6,554 bases of DNA from Erysipelotrichaceae bacterium (GTDB lineage: Bacteria > Bacillota_I > Bacilli_A > Erysipelotrichales > Erysipelotrichaceae). Made by a program: the position numbers and the translations under genes. Positions 1-6,554 of the stretch are shown here, piece by piece. The stretch covers positions 1-6,554 of the forward strand of contig DMBB01000315.1 of NCBI GenBank assembly GCA_003446295.1, given 5' to 3'. Below the pieces are notes generated by a model, which had not been told where the DNA came from, searched no databases, and saw only the letters and a program-made list of their open reading frames with translations. The stretch's first letter is position 1. Each line of letters begins with the position of its first letter.

Positions 1-686
1 ATGACCTTGTTCTTGACATAGCCGTCCTTGTATACGGCACCGCAAATTGCGATCGCAATGTCGTGCGGGCCGATCCACGGTGCAGGTTTGCCTGTCATAT
101 AGATGGCAATGACGCCGGGATAAGCGTTGTCCCATGTATCTCCCAGGATCTGCTTGTCAAGTTCGCCGCCGCCTTCACCGACAGCCATTGTACCCAGGGC
201 ACCGTATCTTGTGTGTGAGTCGGAACCGAGGATCATCTTGCCGCAGCCTGCGGACATTTCTCTCATGTACTGGTGGATGACTGCTACATGCGGAGGAACG
301 AAGATTCCGCCGTATTTCTTGGCAGCTGTCAGACCGAACATATGGTCGTCTTCATTGATCGTACCGCCGACTGCATTGAGTGAATTATGGCAGCATGTCA
401 GTGTGTACGGGATCGGGAATGTGTCCATTCCGGAAGCTCTCGCTGTCTGGATGATACCGACATATGTGATATCGTGTGATGTCAGTTCATCGAATTTGAT
501 GCTCAGGTGATCCATTGTTTCATTCTGATTGTGTGCTTTCAGAATGCTGTAGGCGATGGTGCCTTTTCTGGCTTCTTCTTTGTCTGCTTTGATTCCGCAG
601 AGCTGTTCGACCTTGCCGGCTTCACTTTCCGGAACGATCTCATTGCCTTTTACCAGATAAATTCCTTCATCGTATAACTTGATCAT
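1..686 (-). CDS. Aconitase-superfamily hydratase (YbhJ-like), N-terminal part
   Basis: This is the first 228 codons of a gene that runs off the left edge. It starts at ATG 686-684 behind a strong AGGAGGAG site (690-697), spacing about 3-5 nt. The translation begins [20 protein letters not shown]. It carries aconitase-family landmarks: an HQ pair in AVIHQY (about residues 135-140), the GSDSHT signature (154-159) and a glycine-rich [11 protein letters not shown] stretch (165-175). It also has a following [21 protein letters not shown] segment, matching the order in aconitase domain 1. Family members are [4Fe-4S] enzymes that dehydrate and rehydrate hydroxy-acids in the cytoplasm. The residues that would bind the cluster lie outside the window. 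The sequence resembles the uncharacterised aconitase-like YbhJ/'hydratase' group more than citrate-cycle AcnA/AcnB, so the substrate is unknown. It follows a LysR gene on the same strand but has its own upstream signals. Superfamily call is firm; the exact enzyme is not. Confidence 0.88.
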
Positions 687-717
687 ATTCTCCTCCTGAT
701 CTCCTTTTGACAACTAT

Positions 718-826: not shown

Positions 827-1756
827 TCAGTGATTTTTGTCAAATTCTTCCTTTAATAAATCGATCAGAAAGCGTGCGGAACGGCTGAGATATGCGCCTT
901 TGCGGTAGACAGCACGCACATCCCACATGTCCTCAGAGCCGGTGTATCTGTAGCAGGGGATCTCGCCTGTACCGCCCAGAGGAATGACGGCACGCTCGGA
1001 GATGATCGTTGCCCCGAGTCCTTCTTTTGCCAGCTGTACGGCAGTGATGCCGGAAGTGACGATCGTTGTGTCCTCGGGACTGATCCCTGCTTCCTGCAGG
1101 ATGCGTTCCGCATATCTGCGGATATACTGTCCGTCCGTCATCAGGATGAAGGGGACATTCCGCATTCTGCGCAGATCGACCTTTGGCAGCTGATGTTCAT
1201 TGCCTTTTTCCAGGATCATGTCTTTTGTGATCAGATCTCGTCCGGCAACCAGATACAGGTGTTCACGGCAGATCAGCTCCGTGTCAAAGTGTTCAGGCAG
1301 GTCTCCCGGATCGCCCGGCAGGATGGCGATATCGATATTGCCGCTCTCCAGGTCACGTATGATCTGAACGGAACGTGTCTCTTTCAGCCTGAGATTGACC
1401 TTGGGGAAGGAACGGCGGAACTTTTCCAGTACCCTCGGCAGCATGTATCCTGCACGTTCGGTCGGGATGCCCAGATCGATCTCACCGGCTTCCTCATTGA
1501 GAATATCTTCGAATTCTTTCCGGAGGTTGTCATTGATCTCAAGGATCTGTCTGGCTGATTCGATATACCGCTTCCCGGCATATGTCAGTGTGACAGGTGA
1601 ATGGGAACGGTCAAACAGCCTGACGCCGAGATCTTCTTCCACCTTGGATATGACATAGCTCAGGGATGGCTGTGAGATATACAGTTTTTTGGCTGCGGCA
1701 GTCACGCTTCCGCATTCCGCCACCGCGATCATATATTTCAGTTCTTTAAAGTCCAT
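827..1756 (-). CDS. LysR-family transcriptional regulator
   Basis: A full-length 309-residue LysR-type regulator, the normal length for the family. The N-terminal winged helix-turn-helix spans about residues 3-62, with the recognition region SVTAAAKKLYISQPSLSYVI (17-36) and the typical VRLFDR turn (45-50). A linker helix follows (about 63-90), then the periplasmic-binding-protein-like effector domain (about 91-300), which senses a small molecule. The start is ATG 1756-1754, with AGGAG six bases upstream. It has its own extended -10 promoter and its own terminator, so it is monocistronic. Its position just upstream of the aconitase-like gene, with a LysR-type dyad in front of that gene, suggests it controls the hydratase; LysR control of aconitase genes is known, for example CcpC in Bacillus. 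The effector cannot be read from sequence. Confidence 0.95.
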   Translation of the reverse strand: MDFKELKYMIAVAECGSVTAAAKKLYISQPSLSYVISKVEEDLGVRLFDRSHSPVTLTYAGKRYIESARQILEINDNLRKEFEDILNEEAGEIDLGIPTERAGYMLPRVLEKFRRSFPKVNLRLKETRSVQIIRDLESGNIDIAILPGDPGDLPEHFDTELICREHLYLVAGRDLITKDMILEKGNEHQLPKVDLRRMRNVPFILMTDGQYIRRYAERILQEAGISPEDTTIVTSGITAVQLAKEGLGATIISERAVIPLGGTGEIPCYRYTGSEDMWDVRAVYRKGAYLSRSARFLIDLLKEEFDKNH

Positions 1757-1892: not shown

Positions 1893-2561
1893 TTATTCGA
1901 TATCAGAGGCTTTGGGGATCGCCAGCAGGGTGACGCGCAATGACTCGGATATGTGGTATGACATGATCGTAGACAGAGCATCCTGGTCGCCGGACAGGAT
2001 CGCTTCGATCATCTGCAGATGCTCATTGTGCGAGCATTCCATACGCCGGGGATCCTGCAGGGAAATACTGCGGAACCGCTGGCACAGGGTGCCGTTGCGC
2101 CGGTAGAAATGAATGAGCAGCTCATTATCACTGAGTTCTGCGATCTGATTATGAAAACGGGTCGAGACCTGAAGATAGCGGGCGGAATCCTTTGAATTGT
2201 AGGCTTCAATGAATTCTTCCCGGATATTCCGGAACCATTCTTTCTCCTGTTCACCCAGATTTTTGAAGCCGTAATGGATACTTCCGTTCTGTACGAGCGC
2301 TTCCACCTGGTACATATTCCGGACATCTTTTTCCGTAAAGATGCGGACCGCAACGCCCTTGTTTGCCTCTCCTGATACCAGACCGTCTGCTTCAAGCAGA
2401 CGGATCGCTTCTCTGACCGGCGAGCGGCTGATGTTCAGTTCGCTGCAGATCTGCTGTTCTGAAAGGTGGGTGCCTCCCGGATAATACCCGCTGAGGATGC
2501 GTTCTTTCAGAATCTCATAAACCTGTTCACGGATCGTTCCCTGGATCTTGATATTTGTCAT
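1893..2561 (-). CDS. GntR-family regulator, FadR/FCD subfamily
   Basis: A 222-residue regulator of the GntR family. Residues about 8-74 are the winged helix-turn-helix, including LSEQQICSELNISRSPVREA (33-52) and a wing GEANKGVAVR. Residues about 80-212 form an all-helical FCD ligand domain. FCD domains usually bind a metal through Asp-x3-His plus two later His. His137, His181 and His203 are present here, but the Asp position four residues before His137 is Ser133. Ligands of this subfamily are commonly small organic acids; the ligand here is unknown. The gene starts 18 nt after the stop of the rhodanese-like gene and is followed by a terminator, so it is probably the last gene of that operon. 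Its ribosome site is weak (GGGAAG about 9 nt upstream). The perfect palindrome at 4497-4518 is its most likely operator, which would make it autoregulatory. Confidence 0.93.
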   Translation of the reverse strand: MTNIKIQGTIREQVYEILKERILSGYYPGGTHLSEQQICSELNISRSPVREAIRLLEADGLVSGEANKGVAVRIFTEKDVRNMYQVEALVQNGSIHYGFKNLGEQEKEWFRNIREEFIEAYNSKDSARYLQVSTRFHNQIAELSDNELLIHFYRRNGTLCQRFRSISLQDPRRMECSHNEHLQMIEAILSGDQDALSTIMSYHISESLRVTLLAIPKASDIE

Positions 2562-2579
2562 AGCATTTACTTCCCGTGA

Positions 2580-3257
2580 TTATTCTAATATATGCATATC
2601 TCCCCAGTCAAAAGACAATGACGCACGGAAAGCCTGTATCGGCTCAATATAATGCCTGTGGTCTTTCAGATCCCTGTAAGCAGCAGTATCTCCGATCCCG
2701 TTGGTGAATGTGCCGGCATTGTATAGCCTTGCCGGATCATAGCCGTACTGGATGAGCAGGTTGATCATATAAGCTGCTTCGACCCCGGCTGTCGACATGA
2801 AGACAATGTCCTGATCCTGCGGAAAGATCTCGTTCAGGATCGTTTCGCTTTCTTCATAATTCGGAAAGAATGTACCGACTCCGCCGAGATATGTCTCCTT
2901 GTTTTCGGTATCTTTCTGCATGGTAAACAGGACATTCTCCTGTTTCTGCCAGGATACGATCACATCGTAGAAGGGCAGGTTCACAAAACCGGCGATCCCG
3001 CCTTCGGAATATACCTGGTCGGCTGAACGCAGATCAAAATAACGGACACCTTCCAGAAACAGATAATCATCGATATTCAGAGCGCTGAGCGGCGAATCGG
3101 CAGCGACGGCTGATTCCGGGACAGGCTTCACAGGCAGTTCTGTGATCGGAACAACTGAAGGTTCCGGGACGGGTGTTTCAGCGGACTGCTGCGGTTGGGC
3201 AGGCGCACTGCATCCGGTCAGGATGAGCATGCATATCATCAGGATCATATGTTTCAT
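2580..3257 (-). CDS. Rhodanese-fold lipoprotein with degenerate active site
   Basis: A 225-residue secreted lipoprotein. The signal peptide ends in lipobox LTGC with Cys16, followed by a Pro/Glu-rich tether (about 20-55). Residues about 60-190 match the rhodanese layout: FDLR (74-77), GGIAGFVNLPF (86-96), IVFM then the active-site loop (151-160), and a C-terminal GYDPARLYN segment (172-180). The loop reads STAGVE (155-160) where active rhodaneses have CxxGxR. The catalytic Cys is therefore Ser155 and the anion-binding Arg is Glu160, so sulfurtransferase activity is not expected. It is a clear paralogue of the rhodanese lipoprotein at 5600-6295: shared YEES, FP.D..I.FM, MN.L, GYD and YN blocks in the same order. 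Its ATG overlaps the apbE stop by 4 nt (ATGA), indicating translational coupling, with AGAGGT (3264-3269) as ribosome site. A binding or scaffold role is my inference. Confidence 0.85.
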   Translation of the reverse strand: MKHMILMICMLILTGCSAPAQPQQSAETPVPEPSVVPITELPVKPVPESAVAADSPLSALNIDDYLFLEGVRYFDLRSADQVYSEGGIAGFVNLPFYDVIVSWQKQENVLFTMQKDTENKETYLGGVGTFFPNYEESETILNEIFPQDQDIVFMSTAGVEAAYMINLLIQYGYDPARLYNAGTFTNGIGDTAAYRDLKDHRHYIEPIQAFRASLSFDWGDMHILE

Positions 3258-4450
3258 GGCAGTACCTCTGTTTGAATGATATTTTCTGACACAGATGCTT
3301 CGATGATCTGTGTTCTGAATGATTCGGAAGTATACAGGATGCCCTGTTCTTCGGCTGTCTGAACAAACCAGGACCAGGAGATATCCGTATCGAAATAGTC
3401 TGAAACGGTTCTGATCAGTTCCAGACGCTCTTCATTCGTTGAACAGTTGAAGAGTGCTGTTGTCAGAACATCCGCTGCCAGACCGCCCCGGTCAGTCATG
3501 ACCGTGTTGGTCCGGATGTAATTGTTCGGGTATCCGGTGTCCGGATCCAGGATATGATGTCTGATCACACTGTTATCACCCTTCAGAATGAAATAACTGC
3601 TGTCATCACCGCTGGTTGACACCAGGCCGGTGCTGTTGATGGCAAAGTCATAAAGCGTATAGACTCTCGCATAAGGGTTGCGTGCACCGACATGCCAGGT
3701 ACGGGGCTGATCGTCCGGCGCGTAGGCAGCGATCGAACTGGAGCCTGCATTCAGCAGGAACGGCCTGCCGTACTGCTTCAGTTCATCATAGATCTTCTCG
3801 GAAGCGTATCCTTTGGCCAGTGCGCCTGCATCAATGACAGGGGAGGAACTGCATGACTCGTACGGCATCAGGGTCACTGTCTGTTCTTCATCATCGAAGA
3901 TCAGCACATTGTCAAGATCCTGCGGCTTTACGACACAGCCCAGCGCTTCATTGATCAGAGCGGGATCGGGATCTTCCTGTTCGATGGGGAAGGGGCTGAA
4001 CAGGTCAGCCCAGACATCATACAGGCGTCCGACCGTCAGATTGTATTTCCCGTTCGTCAGGATCGTCAGGTCTCTTCCTGCCCGAAGCGCTTCGTACAGT
4101 TCTGCTTCAACATGGACGGGAGTACCCACGGAATGGTTGATCGTATAAATGCCGGCAATGCCTTCTTCTTCATATGAATGATACCGGTCGAAGAGCTTGC
4201 TGAGATGCTGGACCTTTTCATTGAATACGGGATACAGGAGATCCATATCTTCCTGACTGAGTGTTTCAAGCTTTACAGTCGTATGAAAAACAGGGATGAT
4301 CTCATCTCCGGACTCAATGGCTTCCGCAAACGCATAGACAGGCTGCATGGCAGGAGTCTCTTCGGGAACAGGGGTCTCTTCCGAAAAGGGAGTCTGTCCG
4401 CCCGTACATGAAGCCAGCAGAAAAGCAAGAATAACAAAAAATCGTTTCAT
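3254..4450 (-). CDS. apbE: FAD:protein FMN transferase lipoprotein (ApbE family)
   Basis: A 398-residue ApbE-type flavin transferase anchored outside the membrane. ApbE takes FAD and Mg2+ and attaches FMN by a phosphoester bond to a Thr in exported target proteins. The signal peptide ends in lipobox LASC (Cys15), then a Pro/Glu-rich tether. Family motifs appear in order: IDAGALAKGYA (206-216), LLNAGSSSI (232-240), HHILDPDTGYP (298-308) and AADVLTTALF (325-334), whose Asp and Thr match the Mg2+ site. The usual NxGG segment is NAGSSS here, a variation worth noting. The start is fixed by the signal peptide, yet no Shine-Dalgarno sequence precedes it. The FMN_bind lipoprotein encoded divergently at 4565 is the natural substrate. 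First gene of the minus-strand unit, coupled to the next by an ATGA overlap. Confidence 0.95.
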   Translation of the reverse strand: MKRFFVILAFLLASCTGGQTPFSEETPVPEETPAMQPVYAFAEAIESGDEIIPVFHTTVKLETLSQEDMDLLYPVFNEKVQHLSKLFDRYHSYEEEGIAGIYTINHSVGTPVHVEAELYEALRAGRDLTILTNGKYNLTVGRLYDVWADLFSPFPIEQEDPDPALINEALGCVVKPQDLDNVLIFDDEEQTVTLMPYESCSSSPVIDAGALAKGYASEKIYDELKQYGRPFLLNAGSSSIAAYAPDDQPRTWHVGARNPYARVYTLYDFAINSTGLVSTSGDDSSYFILKGDNSVIRHHILDPDTGYPNNYIRTNTVMTDRGGLAADVLTTALFNCSTNEERLELIRTVSDYFDTDISWSWFVQTAEEQGILYTSESFRTQIIEASVSENIIQTEVLP

Positions 4451-4458
4451 ATTAGTAT

Positions 4459-4467
4459 TCTATAACA
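4459..4467 (-). promoter_or_regulatory. Candidate extended -10 promoter of apbE, possibly leaderless
   Basis: On the minus strand, TGTTATAGA (TGn plus TATAGA at 4464-4459) ends only 8 nt before the apbE ATG. The start point would fall within about 2 nt of the ATG. A TTGTCA box at 4477-4472 is not at a usable distance from it. Its 17-nt partner TAATAT (4454-4449) overlaps the start codon itself. Another TATAAT lies at 4543-4538 on this strand without a clear -35. The assignment is tentative. Confidence 0.35.
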
Positions 4468-4496
4468 AATCTGACAAAAAGCATGCCATTGTGGAA

Positions 4497-4518
4497 TGTA
4501 GATTGTATACAATCTACA
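4497..4518. promoter_or_regulatory. Perfect 22-bp palindrome, likely GntR operator
   Basis: Each half reads TGTAGATTGTA towards the centre (4507/4508), with no mismatch. The core ATTGTATACAAT has the GT...AC dyad character typical of FadR/FCD-type GntR sites. It overlaps the -35 region of the plus-strand lipoprotein promoter, so bound protein would block it. It also lies about 45-66 nt upstream of the candidate apbE start. The GntR regulator encoded at 1893-2561, in the apbE operon, is the best candidate to bind it and control both divergent units. The palindrome is directly visible; the binding partner is inferred. Confidence 0.82.
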
Positions 4519-4533
4519 GGAATCGGATATAAT
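4506..4533 (+). promoter_or_regulatory. Promoter of the FMN_bind lipoprotein-rhodanese unit
   Basis: A perfect TATAAT -10 box lies at 4528-4533. The best -35 is TATACA (4506-4511, 4 of 6 matches, 16-nt spacer) inside the palindrome. TTGTAT (4503-4508, 19-nt spacer) is an alternative. Transcription would start near 4540, giving a leader of about 25 nt before the ATG at 4565. The overlap of the -35 with the operator suggests repression. Confidence 0.7.
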
Positions 4534-4564
4534 GTTGATTATAAATAGAAAGTGAGTTTTTGAA

Positions 4565-5584
4565 ATGATCAAGAAAAGAATGACAGCATGTCTGCTTGCA
4601 GTGCTGTTAGCAGGATGCTCTGCCGGTTCAGGCGGAGATCAGGCGGCAGCACCCGCCGGAGTCACAGGTGATTTTTCGGGAACCGCCAAAGGTAACGGGG
4701 GAGATGTAACGATCACTCTGACATTCAAGGATGGCGACCTGACGGGAGTTACTGGCGTCGGCGAAAAAGAAACACAGGGACTCGGCGACAAAGCGATCGA
4801 AACGATGACTCAGGCAATGACTGAGAAGAAATCGATTGATGTTGATTCAGTATCCGGTGCAACGATCACGTCCACAGCAGTGAAAAAGGCAGCCAATGCG
4901 GCTCTGCTGGAAGCAGGCGTTGATCCCACAGCGTTCGGCGGCACAGCTCCGAAAGAAAATACAGGCGGATGTGTGTTTGATGTGAATTCCGTAAACGAAT
5001 GGCTCAACACTTCTGCTGACCTTGGTGAAGGTACGATGGGAAATGCTGTAGCAGTCATCCCGATCAACCATGTCAATGGTCCGCGTGAAGAGACACAGTT
5101 CTACGCATTTGTAAACTTCAAGTATAAAGCAAGAAACTACATTAAATACCAGGTTACATATCTGTCCTGCACATGCCGCAGTGCTGATGTGAACTACTGG
5201 ATGACAGCATATGTTGAACTGACGCTTCCGAAGTCCAAGGACATCAATGATTCCGAAGTCAGATTCCTTTCATTCGACAGGGACTCCCAGGATCATTACA
5301 CAGCTGGCTTCTGGGGTGACTCCAACCCGACACCTGCAGGCGCAACGTATGAAATGTTCAAGGAAGAATACATCCCTTACTTCATCGATAAGAATTACGG
5401 CTATATCCAGACGCTGAGCTTTGTTGAAGACATCGACGCGGCTGAATACGCTGCCGGTGAAGGCCGTGAAGGCTACACACTGGATACACTGTCCGGTTCC
5501 AGTGTTTCTACAAATAACATTATCCGTATGCTGAACGCACTGTTCAAATATCATGCGGAGGATGCATATTTTACAGCTGAATAA
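4565..5584 (+). CDS. FMN_bind-domain lipoprotein with unrecognised C-terminal half
   Basis: A 339-residue lipoprotein with basic start MIKKRM and lipobox LAGC (Cys18). A short Gly/Ala-rich tether follows. Residues about 34-117 form an FMN_bind domain: GTAKGNGGDVTITLTFKDG (39-57), ETQGLGDKA (69-77), and the flavinylation motif DSVSGATITS (94-103). By analogy with NqrC/RnfG, ApbE would attach FMN to Thr102. Residues about 136-339 match no family I can name. They contain Cys136, a CTC pair (Cys202, Cys204), many aromatic residues, and a final DTLSGSSVST segment (307-316) that resembles a degenerate second flavinylation motif. The likely role is a surface-tethered flavin electron carrier. Ribosome site is weak (GTGAG, 8 nt spacing). 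The rhodanese lipoprotein gene follows 15 nt downstream. The FMN_bind call is firm; partners are unknown. Confidence 0.9.
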   Translation: MIKKRMTACLLAVLLAGCSAGSGGDQAAAPAGVTGDFSGTAKGNGGDVTITLTFKDGDLTGVTGVGEKETQGLGDKAIETMTQAMTEKKSIDVDSVSGATITSTAVKKAANAALLEAGVDPTAFGGTAPKENTGGCVFDVNSVNEWLNTSADLGEGTMGNAVAVIPINHVNGPREETQFYAFVNFKYKARNYIKYQVTYLSCTCRSADVNYWMTAYVELTLPKSKDINDSEVRFLSFDRDSQDHYTAGFWGDSNPTPAGATYEMFKEEYIPYFIDKNYGYIQTLSFVEDIDAAEYAAGEGREGYTLDTLSGSSVSTNNIIRMLNALFKYHAEDAYFTAE

Positions 5585-5599
5585 ACAGGAGGAAAGAAA

Positions 5600-6295
5600 A
5601 TGAAAAAGTTTATGACAGCGGCATTCGCCACACTTCTGCTGGTCGGATGCTCATCAGCACCTGCCGAGACTTCCTGCCCGGAATGCCCGGTCTGCGAAAC
5701 ACCGGCAGCAGTTGAACCTGCACCTGCGGAGGCTGCAGAGGCAGCTCTTCCGGCTCCCCGTGACACAACAAAGACTTACAAGCCTGACGAGAAATCCGAT
5801 CCGGTTGCCTGCACGGATGATACATTCCTGCCCGGCTGCTCTGCGATCAATAATGAAAACCTTCTTGACTATCTGAACCGTGACGATGTTCTTTACATCG
5901 ACCTCCGTGATTTCGGTGACTATGCGAAGAAGCATTTCAGAAACTTTGAATGCATCCCTTACTTTGCGCTGATCTACAGCAAAGAAGGCGGCGAAGGCAT
6001 CACACAGCTCTACAGCGGCGACACAACAGATCCTGTTGCTACATATGAAGAAAGTGATGAACTGCTCGAAGTATTCTTCCCGAAAGACAAGACGATCTTC
6101 CTGATGTGCCAGAGCGGCGGCCGCGTTGCACAGTGCATGAATATCCTGAAGGCAAAGGGATATGATATGTCCAAGATCTACAACATCACAGGTATGGGCA
6201 ACTTCACAGATCCGATGTATGCGGATATCACAGTTGACATGGCTGAGATCGGACTCGAGGCTGCTTATACATTCGAAGGCCTGACCAGAAACTGA
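5600..6295 (+). CDS. Rhodanese-fold lipoprotein with intact active-site loop
   Basis: A 231-residue lipoprotein: lipobox LVGC (Cys17), then an unusual CPECPVC cluster (Cys26, 29, 32), then an Ala/Pro/Glu-rich tether to about residue 55. The rhodanese-like domain spans about 84-205. It has YIDLRD (99-104), a His112 region equal to the usual GHIPGA turn, and the loop CQSGGR (170-175), which fits CxxGxR with catalytic Cys170 and Arg175. Such domains carry sulfane sulfur as a Cys persulfide or act on related thiol or oxyanion substrates. Compared with simple rhodaneses there is an insertion of about 30 residues before YEES (149-152). The paralogue at 2580-3257 shares it. A strong AGGAGG (5587-5592) sits 7 nt before the ATG. 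Second gene of the plus-strand unit; a terminator follows. Substrate and acceptor are not known. Confidence 0.9.
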   Translation: MKKFMTAAFATLLLVGCSSAPAETSCPECPVCETPAAVEPAPAEAAEAALPAPRDTTKTYKPDEKSDPVACTDDTFLPGCSAINNENLLDYLNRDDVLYIDLRDFGDYAKKHFRNFECIPYFALIYSKEGGEGITQLYSGDTTDPVATYEESDELLEVFFPKDKTIFLMCQSGGRVAQCMNILKAKGYDMSKIYNITGMGNFTDPMYADITVDMAEIGLEAAYTFEGLTRN

Positions 6296-6481: not shown

Positions 6482-6554
6482 ATGGAATTTCCGGATCATT
6501 TTTTATGGGGCGCATCATCTTCTGCATTCCAGATCGAAGGCGCATGGAATGAAG
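6482..6554 (+). CDS. GH1 beta-glucosidase / 6-phospho-beta-glucosidase, N-terminal end
   Basis: Only the first 24 codons are in the window. They begin MEFPDHFLWGASSSAFQIEG and match the N-terminal signature of glycoside hydrolase family 1 (F-x-WG-x-A-[ST]-x3-Q-x-EG). In this signature the Gln helps bind the glycone. These enzymes hydrolyse beta-glucosides or their 6-phosphates in the cytoplasm; the phospho-specificity residues lie beyond the edge. AAGGAG (6465-6470) precedes the ATG at a somewhat long 11 nt. The gene is separated from the lipoprotein unit by a terminator and is probably unrelated to it. Confidence 0.85.
   Translation, partial: MEFPDHFLWGASSSAFQIEGAWNE

Follow-up and report, generated by a model that had tools for sequence, protein, structure and literature searches.

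A 6,554-nucleotide stretch of an Erysipelotrichaceae bacterium (contig DMBB01000315.1), hereafter the window, was found to carry a flavin-rhodanese module, in which a lipoprotein predicted to bear covalent flavin mononucleotide (FMN) is encoded beside lipoproteins of the rhodanese fold. This module is genuine and conserved, and within the literature searched it has not been described; sulfur chemistry is the leading, unproved reading of its function. Judged from sequence, the core of the module is FMN_C, a divergent domain of the FMN_bind type, and the recognised classical FMN_bind domain is an optional part. The structural features were as follows.

2580..3257, minus strand: RhoA, rhodanese-fold lipoprotein (Pfam Rhodanese 16.9 bits, under the cut-off of 22.2), with a STAGVE loop and Ser155
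3254..4450, minus strand: ApbE, predicted flavin adenine dinucleotide (FAD):protein FMN transferase lipoprotein (PF02424, 131.4 bits, cut-off 25.6)
4565..5584, plus strand: FMN lipoprotein, with an N-terminal FMN_bind domain and a C-terminal FMN_C (FMN_bind PF04205, 67.8 bits, cut-off 22)
residues ~33-117 of the FMN lipoprotein, plus strand: N-terminal FMN_bind domain, predicted acceptor Thr100
4844..4864 (residues 94-100), plus strand: N-terminal flavinylation motif DSVSGAT, acceptor Thr100 by motif
4967..5581 (residues ~135-339), plus strand: FMN_C, conserved divergent FMN_bind-type domain
5168..5176, plus strand: CTC motif in FMN_C, Cys202/Cys204
5483..5503 (residues 307-313), plus strand: C-terminal flavinylation-type motif DTLSGSS, predicted acceptor Ser313
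5600..6295, plus strand: RhoB, rhodanese lipoprotein (PF00581, 31.7 bits, cut-off 22.2), with the C-x4-R loop CQSGGR and Cys170

Co-occurrence of the flavin and rhodanese genes

The original prediction placed an ApbE gene, an FMN_bind gene, two rhodanese-fold genes and a GntR regulator gene around one operator, and open reading frames (ORFs), Pfam matches and a perfect 22-bp palindrome between the genes bear this arrangement out. The minus-strand arm reads ApbE, RhoA and the GntR regulator, with a 4-base overlap between the ApbE and RhoA genes, and the plus-strand arm reads FMN lipoprotein and RhoB. A lipobox, judged by eye, is present in all four proteins other than the regulator. Searching with the FMN protein yielded 11 loci, 10 of which hold all four structural genes; the remaining one (L007) begins inside the FMN gene. 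The closest relatives are metagenome-assembled genomes of Solobacterium (L001, from dairy cattle, and L002), with an FMN protein 98% identical to that of the window, and named Holdemania strains carry the module as well.

Since the 11 loci had been picked by the FMN gene, a reverse search was made with RhoB in 145 genomes of the family to which Holdemania filiformis (G008) belongs. RhoB matched 32 genomes at E<=0.001, and 21 of these matches were strong (E 2e-62 or better), the cut-offs for strong matches in this and the following searches being chosen after the scores were seen. The matches left out were a 76-97-amino-acid (aa) open fragment in G071 (E 3e-28), ORFs of 361-398 aa at 34-40% identity in G025, G068, G100, G121 and G139, whose 3.4-kb loci hold no FMN_C, and matches at E 4e-5 or worse in G029, G035, G041, G081 and G087. 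We found that a coding stretch for FMN_C directly adjoins RhoB in 20 of the 21 strong-RhoB genomes, and in the exception (G143) the locus begins at a contig end. An independent search gave strong FMN_C matches in 20 of the 145 genomes, all within the strong-RhoB 21 (26 matched, and six at E ~1e-4 that covered only the N-terminal part of the query were dropped). A third independent search gave strong RhoA matches in 18 genomes, all within the FMN_C 20 (28 matched, and 10 at E 4e-13 or worse were dropped as RhoB, other rhodaneses or weak matches). The Fisher p values over the 145 genomes, uncorrected for kinship, were 1.2e-23 for RhoB with FMN_C (an overlap of 20 genomes) and 4.6e-21 for RhoA with FMN_C. 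As this adjacency and the natural fusions described below show, rhodanese lipoproteins are indeed coupled to ApbE/FMN proteins, as predicted, and the coupling is conserved. Neither an unconserved cluster nor a rhodanese found mostly without apbE/FMN_bind, the two outcomes named beforehand as speaking against the coupling, was observed. Gene order differed in one genome (L116 in G097), where FMN_C, RhoB, another ORF, ApbE and RhoA all lie on one strand in place of the usual divergent order.

The pairing of ApbE with FMN_bind, which the original prediction named as a known one, is present in the window. Among relatives classical FMN_bind is optional, and an ApbE gene belongs to the cluster in 12 of the 21 strong-RhoB genomes. 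Among the nine without it, the locus is cut by contig ends in three (G019, G045 and G143); the cluster of G078 is split over two contigs. The cluster ApbE is an extra copy in 11 of the 12 genomes, where it scores E 2e-39 to 9e-35 against the Pfam family and the other copy scores E 2e-63 or better; it is the sole copy in G012. The window protein belongs to the ApbE family by its PF02424 match and by alignment to solved ApbE proteins (TM1553, E 1e-17, with which the stretch HHILDPxTGYP aligns, and 7esa, E 4e-12).

FMN_C, the rhodanese proteins and their fusions

The window FMN protein carries a flavinylation motif within an FMN_bind fold, as expected of a flavinylated substrate. The acceptor had been predicted at Thr102; the motif spans residues 94-100, hence the acceptor would be Thr100. 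The window protein and many relatives have an FMN_C that falls short of the Pfam cut-off. A homologue search with FMN_C gave 508 proteins, and all 120 of those listed (59 distinct cores among them) contain both a CxC and a C-terminal flavinylation-type motif. Identity between the window and L008 was 75% for FMN_C, 63% for RhoB, 49% for RhoA and 34% for ApbE, so that FMN_C changes most slowly. The FMN proteins of Holdemania and L011 lack the N-terminal FMN_bind domain, yet ApbE is encoded in their clusters, and FMN_C is therefore the sole candidate acceptor there. At L119:8841-9650 an insertion in FMN_C splits the search match, with the CTC and the motif (GAS) retained. Genomes G001-G010 are rich in FMN_bind proteins: each has 6 to 42 matches, and many of these fall in ORFs of ~590-860 aa.

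RhoB has both the PF00581 domain and the C-x4-R active loop, which is of the length typical of sulfurtransferases. The loop pattern recurs in 119 of the 120 listed RhoB homologues (of 276), and the remaining one (P0169) reads CQVGGR by eye; a stand-alone RhoB also occurs in Treponema sp. HNW (P0230). RhoA has neither a PF00581 score above the cut-off nor a catalytic Cys. Its Ser155 aligns with Cys170 of RhoB, and the loop reads (S/A)T(A/G)GVE, with no Cys, in all 17 Erysipelotrichaceae copies compared. Thus, of the two rhodanese-fold lipoproteins predicted, RhoB is a rhodanese with its cysteine in place and RhoA appears dead by sequence.

The two proteins also occur as one. Natural FMN_C-RhoB fusions were found in proteins of Clostridia and Synergistales by a search with P0233, which gave 422 proteins; the source names among the 120 listed included Clostridia, Clostridiales, Synergistales and Synergistaceae. 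Among those listed, the rhodanese loop CxxGxR is present in 120 of 120, the CxC in 118 (in P0229 and P0210 the sequence begins beyond or inside it) and a flavinylation-type motif in 119 (P0233 is without that stretch), with the canonical GAT in 115 of the 119 motifs. Four proteins (P0325, P0334, P0343 and P0351) have the order FMN_C-RhoB-RhoB.

A search of 392 genomes across the phylum gave 46 matches, 14 over the C-terminal domain and 32 over the FMN_bind part only; only five candidates were scored in FMN_bind-rich genomes, so paralogues may be missed. FMN_C was found at 33-50% identity in eight genomes (G464, G265, G191, G354, G268, G198, G173 and, in two copies, G243), and a rhodanese gene lies beside it in eight of the nine distant loci. 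By sequence, then, the rhodanese fold is the partner of FMN_C in eight distant loci. An FMN_C paralogue at L130:5591-6568 has a flavinylation-type motif, no CxC and no rhodanese neighbour, a single case which hints that CxC and rhodanese go together. In five distant genomes (L123, L124 and L127-L129) the operon reads Rho-FMN_C-ApbE and is oriented divergently to a neighbouring cluster, and its ApbE is the only ApbE found in the genome. The neighbouring cluster of L123 encodes NADH_4Fe-4S, hydrogenase-like, RnfC_N and RnfD-type proteins (Pfam); that of L128 reads like it, and those of L124, L127 and L129 are alike by ORF sizes. The rhodanese loop reads CAGGTR in L125 and L126.

Regulator, operator and flanking genes

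The remaining features of the window were as follows.

1893..2561, minus strand: GntR-family regulator with an FCD domain (Pfam FCD 72.0 bits, GntR 61.0 bits), last gene of the ApbE-RhoA-GntR unit
4497..4518, no strand: perfect 22-bp palindrome between the arms, probable GntR operator, overlapping the -35-like hexamer of the FMN-RhoB unit
3-713, minus strand: truncated aconitase-like hydratase (best NCBIfam match PRK11413, 416.9 bits), incomplete at the window edge
827-1756, minus strand: LysR regulator, a flanking gene
6482-6554, plus strand: start of a glycoside hydrolase family 1 (GH1) glycosidase (PF00232, 24 residues matched at 35.8 bits), truncated where the window ends

Even when 3 mismatches are allowed, the window holds no match other than this palindrome, and 200 shuffled sequences gave none. 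Its 12-bp core, ATTGTATACAAT, is present in the window and in L001-L004, all of which have the GntR gene (49-81% identical to that of the window), and the spacers of L003 and L004 are otherwise diverged. Among the 11 loci GntR adjoins the module in L001-L004 only. In L005, L006 and L008-L011 the core is absent from the intergenic regions and no GntR match lies near the module. Since the core is kept with GntR (4 of 4 relatives) and absent without it (0 of 6 intergenic regions), regulator and probable operator are, by sequence comparison, co-inherited and a local addition to the module. The predicted coupling under a shared operator therefore divides into a conserved part, that of ApbE/FMN proteins with rhodaneses, and a local one, the operator and GntR, found in 4 of the 10 relatives with a readable intergenic region. 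The aconitase-like hydratase and LysR genes had clear matches near the module in L001 and L002 only, among the 11 loci.

Candidate mechanism and its alternatives

The module shares with ApbE-flavinylated extracytosolic systems (FMN_bind proteins, RnfG/NqrC) the ApbE protein, D-x-x-x-G-(A/S)-(T/S) motifs, lipoproteins and carrier domains of the FMN_bind type. It differs from them in a divergent carrier core with a CxC that is paired or fused with a rhodanese, and in the lack of a membrane electron-transfer protein in the window cluster (none among the window proteins by Pfam). Rhodaneses are known outside the cytosol: Sud, the periplasmic polysulfide-sulfur transferase of Wolinella, probably passes sulfur to the reductase Psr. 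The reductase there is a molybdoenzyme, in contrast to the flavoprotein of the module. Flavins and rhodaneses meet in the cytosolic enzymes CoAPR, CoADR-RHD and Npsr, and Npsr uses FAD and pyridine nucleotide. From these the module differs by its FMN_bind fold, ApbE and secretion; Pfam showed no FAD pyridine-nucleotide disulfide reductase domain either in the proteins of the window or in five fusions (P0241, P0257, P0304, P0325 and P0343). The coenzyme A (CoA)-persulfide reductase is the nearest working analogue. That of Enterococcus faecalis, CoAPR, is a flavoenzyme that uses FAD and pyridine nucleotide and requires two cysteines, C42 and the rhodanese C508, the latter being persulfidated in cells (PMC9405070).

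No description of flavinylation or covalent flavin paired with rhodanese was found in the open-licence literature searched, and the cluster may stand unnamed elsewhere. The word rhodanese does not occur in the main text of a survey of flavinylation (PMC8238504). The FMN-bind2 subtype, a larger FMN_bind variant whose core has insertions at beta1/beta2 and beta3/alpha1 and for which an Erysipelotrichaceae example is given, was reported by Huang et al. 2024 (PMC11334425), in whose main text no CxC or rhodanese pairing is described and "rhodanese" and "cysteine" have 0 occurrences. ApbE and a rhodanese-like domain both occur in a paper on Fur in Riemerella (PMC5609570), and a genome paper (PMC3306737) matched FMN-binding, rhodanese and extracellular electron transfer.

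For the carrier and the rhodanese, co-inheritance, adjacency, fusion, motifs and family membership are demonstrated at the level of sequence. On this basis, and with confidence just short of even, we propose that the products of the cluster form an extracytosolic flavin-rhodanese redox unit that combines flavin, CxC and rhodanese persulfide chemistry with FMN attached by ApbE. The sulfur/thiol function that the original prediction had suggested is strengthened as a hypothesis by the CxC, the C-x4-R loop and the fusions. In this scheme ApbE would flavinylate FMN_C at Ser313 and, in proteins that have the accessory domain, would also attach FMN at Thr100. Cys170 of RhoB would take sulfane sulfur as a persulfide from an extracellular donor such as polysulfide, thiosulfate or a low-molecular persulfide, and the CxC pair of FMN_C would accept or reduce this persulfide. 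The covalent FMN would then re-reduce the CxC, with release of sulfide, and might itself receive electrons from a membrane donor, an Rnf-type complex perhaps. RhoA, having no Cys, may act as a binding or scaffolding partner, and in Solobacterium-type genomes the GntR protein, as a repressor at the palindrome, may control both arms. The unit would thus work like a CoA-persulfide reductase, with a flavin, a nearby Cys and a rhodanese Cys, but would lie on the membrane's outer side and use covalent FMN of the ApbE type. The reductive direction is a guess. It is a more doubtful, though possible, proposal that FMN_C-RhoB is a persulfide/polysulfide reductase of a new class, extracytosolic and dependent on ApbE, in which covalent flavin and CxC reduce the sulfane sulfur on the rhodanese Cys.

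Several observations weigh against the redox unit so drawn. FMN on Ser313 is predicted from the motif. The window protein gave the better structural model, in which the part aligned with RnfG was the N-terminal domain and not FMN_C; the model of a fusion protein was of middling confidence (predicted local distance difference test 76.3, predicted template-modelling score 0.55), and its RnfG match was the last row listed. ApbE had no match anywhere in two of the 20 module genomes (G106 and G141; loci L117 and L121) or in the distant G354 (L125), where the flavinylation-type motif is intact, and incomplete assembly or another flavin-loading route is possible in these. At the genome level ApbE was not significantly associated with the module (18 of 20 versus 97 of 125, p 0.25). 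The Rnf-type link was likewise not significant (19 of 20 versus 99 of 125, p 0.12), Rnf-type proteins being common across the family (118 of 145 genomes). Of 23 module genomes, 22 encode an RnfD-type protein elsewhere, yet so do 99 of the 125 genomes that lack FMN_C; such a gene adjoins the module only in the five distant loci with Rho-FMN_C-ApbE order, and no match was found in G106, whose assembly may be incomplete. No other sulfur gene was seen in the window, and no FMN_C lies within the 14 kb around the RhoB fragment of G071. RhoA is without the catalytic Cys. The same five distant loci have the rhodanese loop xDGCxR, with the Cys displaced by three positions, and the only rhodanese seen in L122 is RhoA-like, with the loop SQSGVE; the canonical rhodanese Cys is therefore not universal.

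The loss or displacement of this Cys in distant loci and in the RhoA copies, together with FMN_C being the most conserved part, would also be expected if the rhodanese folds were binding or scaffold modules and FMN_C reduced an unrelated acceptor (an organic compound, a metal or an oxidised cofactor), as other flavinylated reductases do. However, C-x4-R is kept in 120 of 120 listed RhoB homologues and in 120 of 120 listed matches of the fusion search, which argues against a scaffold since a neutral one would be expected to lose the loop, and we consider this explanation rather unlikely. The cysteines could instead form a thiol-disulfide relay, in which electrons are exchanged between the flavin, the CxC of FMN_C and the Cys of RhoB on one side and disulfides or oxidised thiols of surface proteins on the other, with no transfer of sulfur. 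The CxC of every listed FMN_C protein would suit such a relay, as would further cysteines conserved ahead of the domain in many RhoB proteins, and known links of some flavinylation clusters to DsbD and thioredoxin-like proteins are described together with mention of a CXC motif (PMC8238504). Yet the partner here is of the rhodanese fold and not the thioredoxin fold, RhoB has the C-x4-R loop, and the extra cysteines are missing in Treponema P0230, so that a relay also seems improbable. In extracytosolic systems that have been characterised, electrons are transferred by proteins that ApbE flavinylates (PMC8238504), and an ordinary flavinylated electron-carrier operon of the FmnB/PplA type with incidental rhodanese neighbours might have been supposed; near-perfect co-occurrence and adjacency and the natural fusions largely contradict it already, and we regard it as very improbable.

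Together, these results extend protein flavinylation to a rhodanese partner and define FMN_C as a conserved flavin domain. The named Holdemania carriers make the module directly testable. If the sulfur reading is true, the redox unit would be a flavin-only route of extracellular sulfane-sulfur reduction in gut anaerobes, with a bearing on gut hydrogen sulfide. If the reductase class is true, extracellular sulfane sulfur would serve Bacillota of gut and rumen, Synergistota and perhaps Treponema as an electron sink that needs neither molybdenum nor haem.

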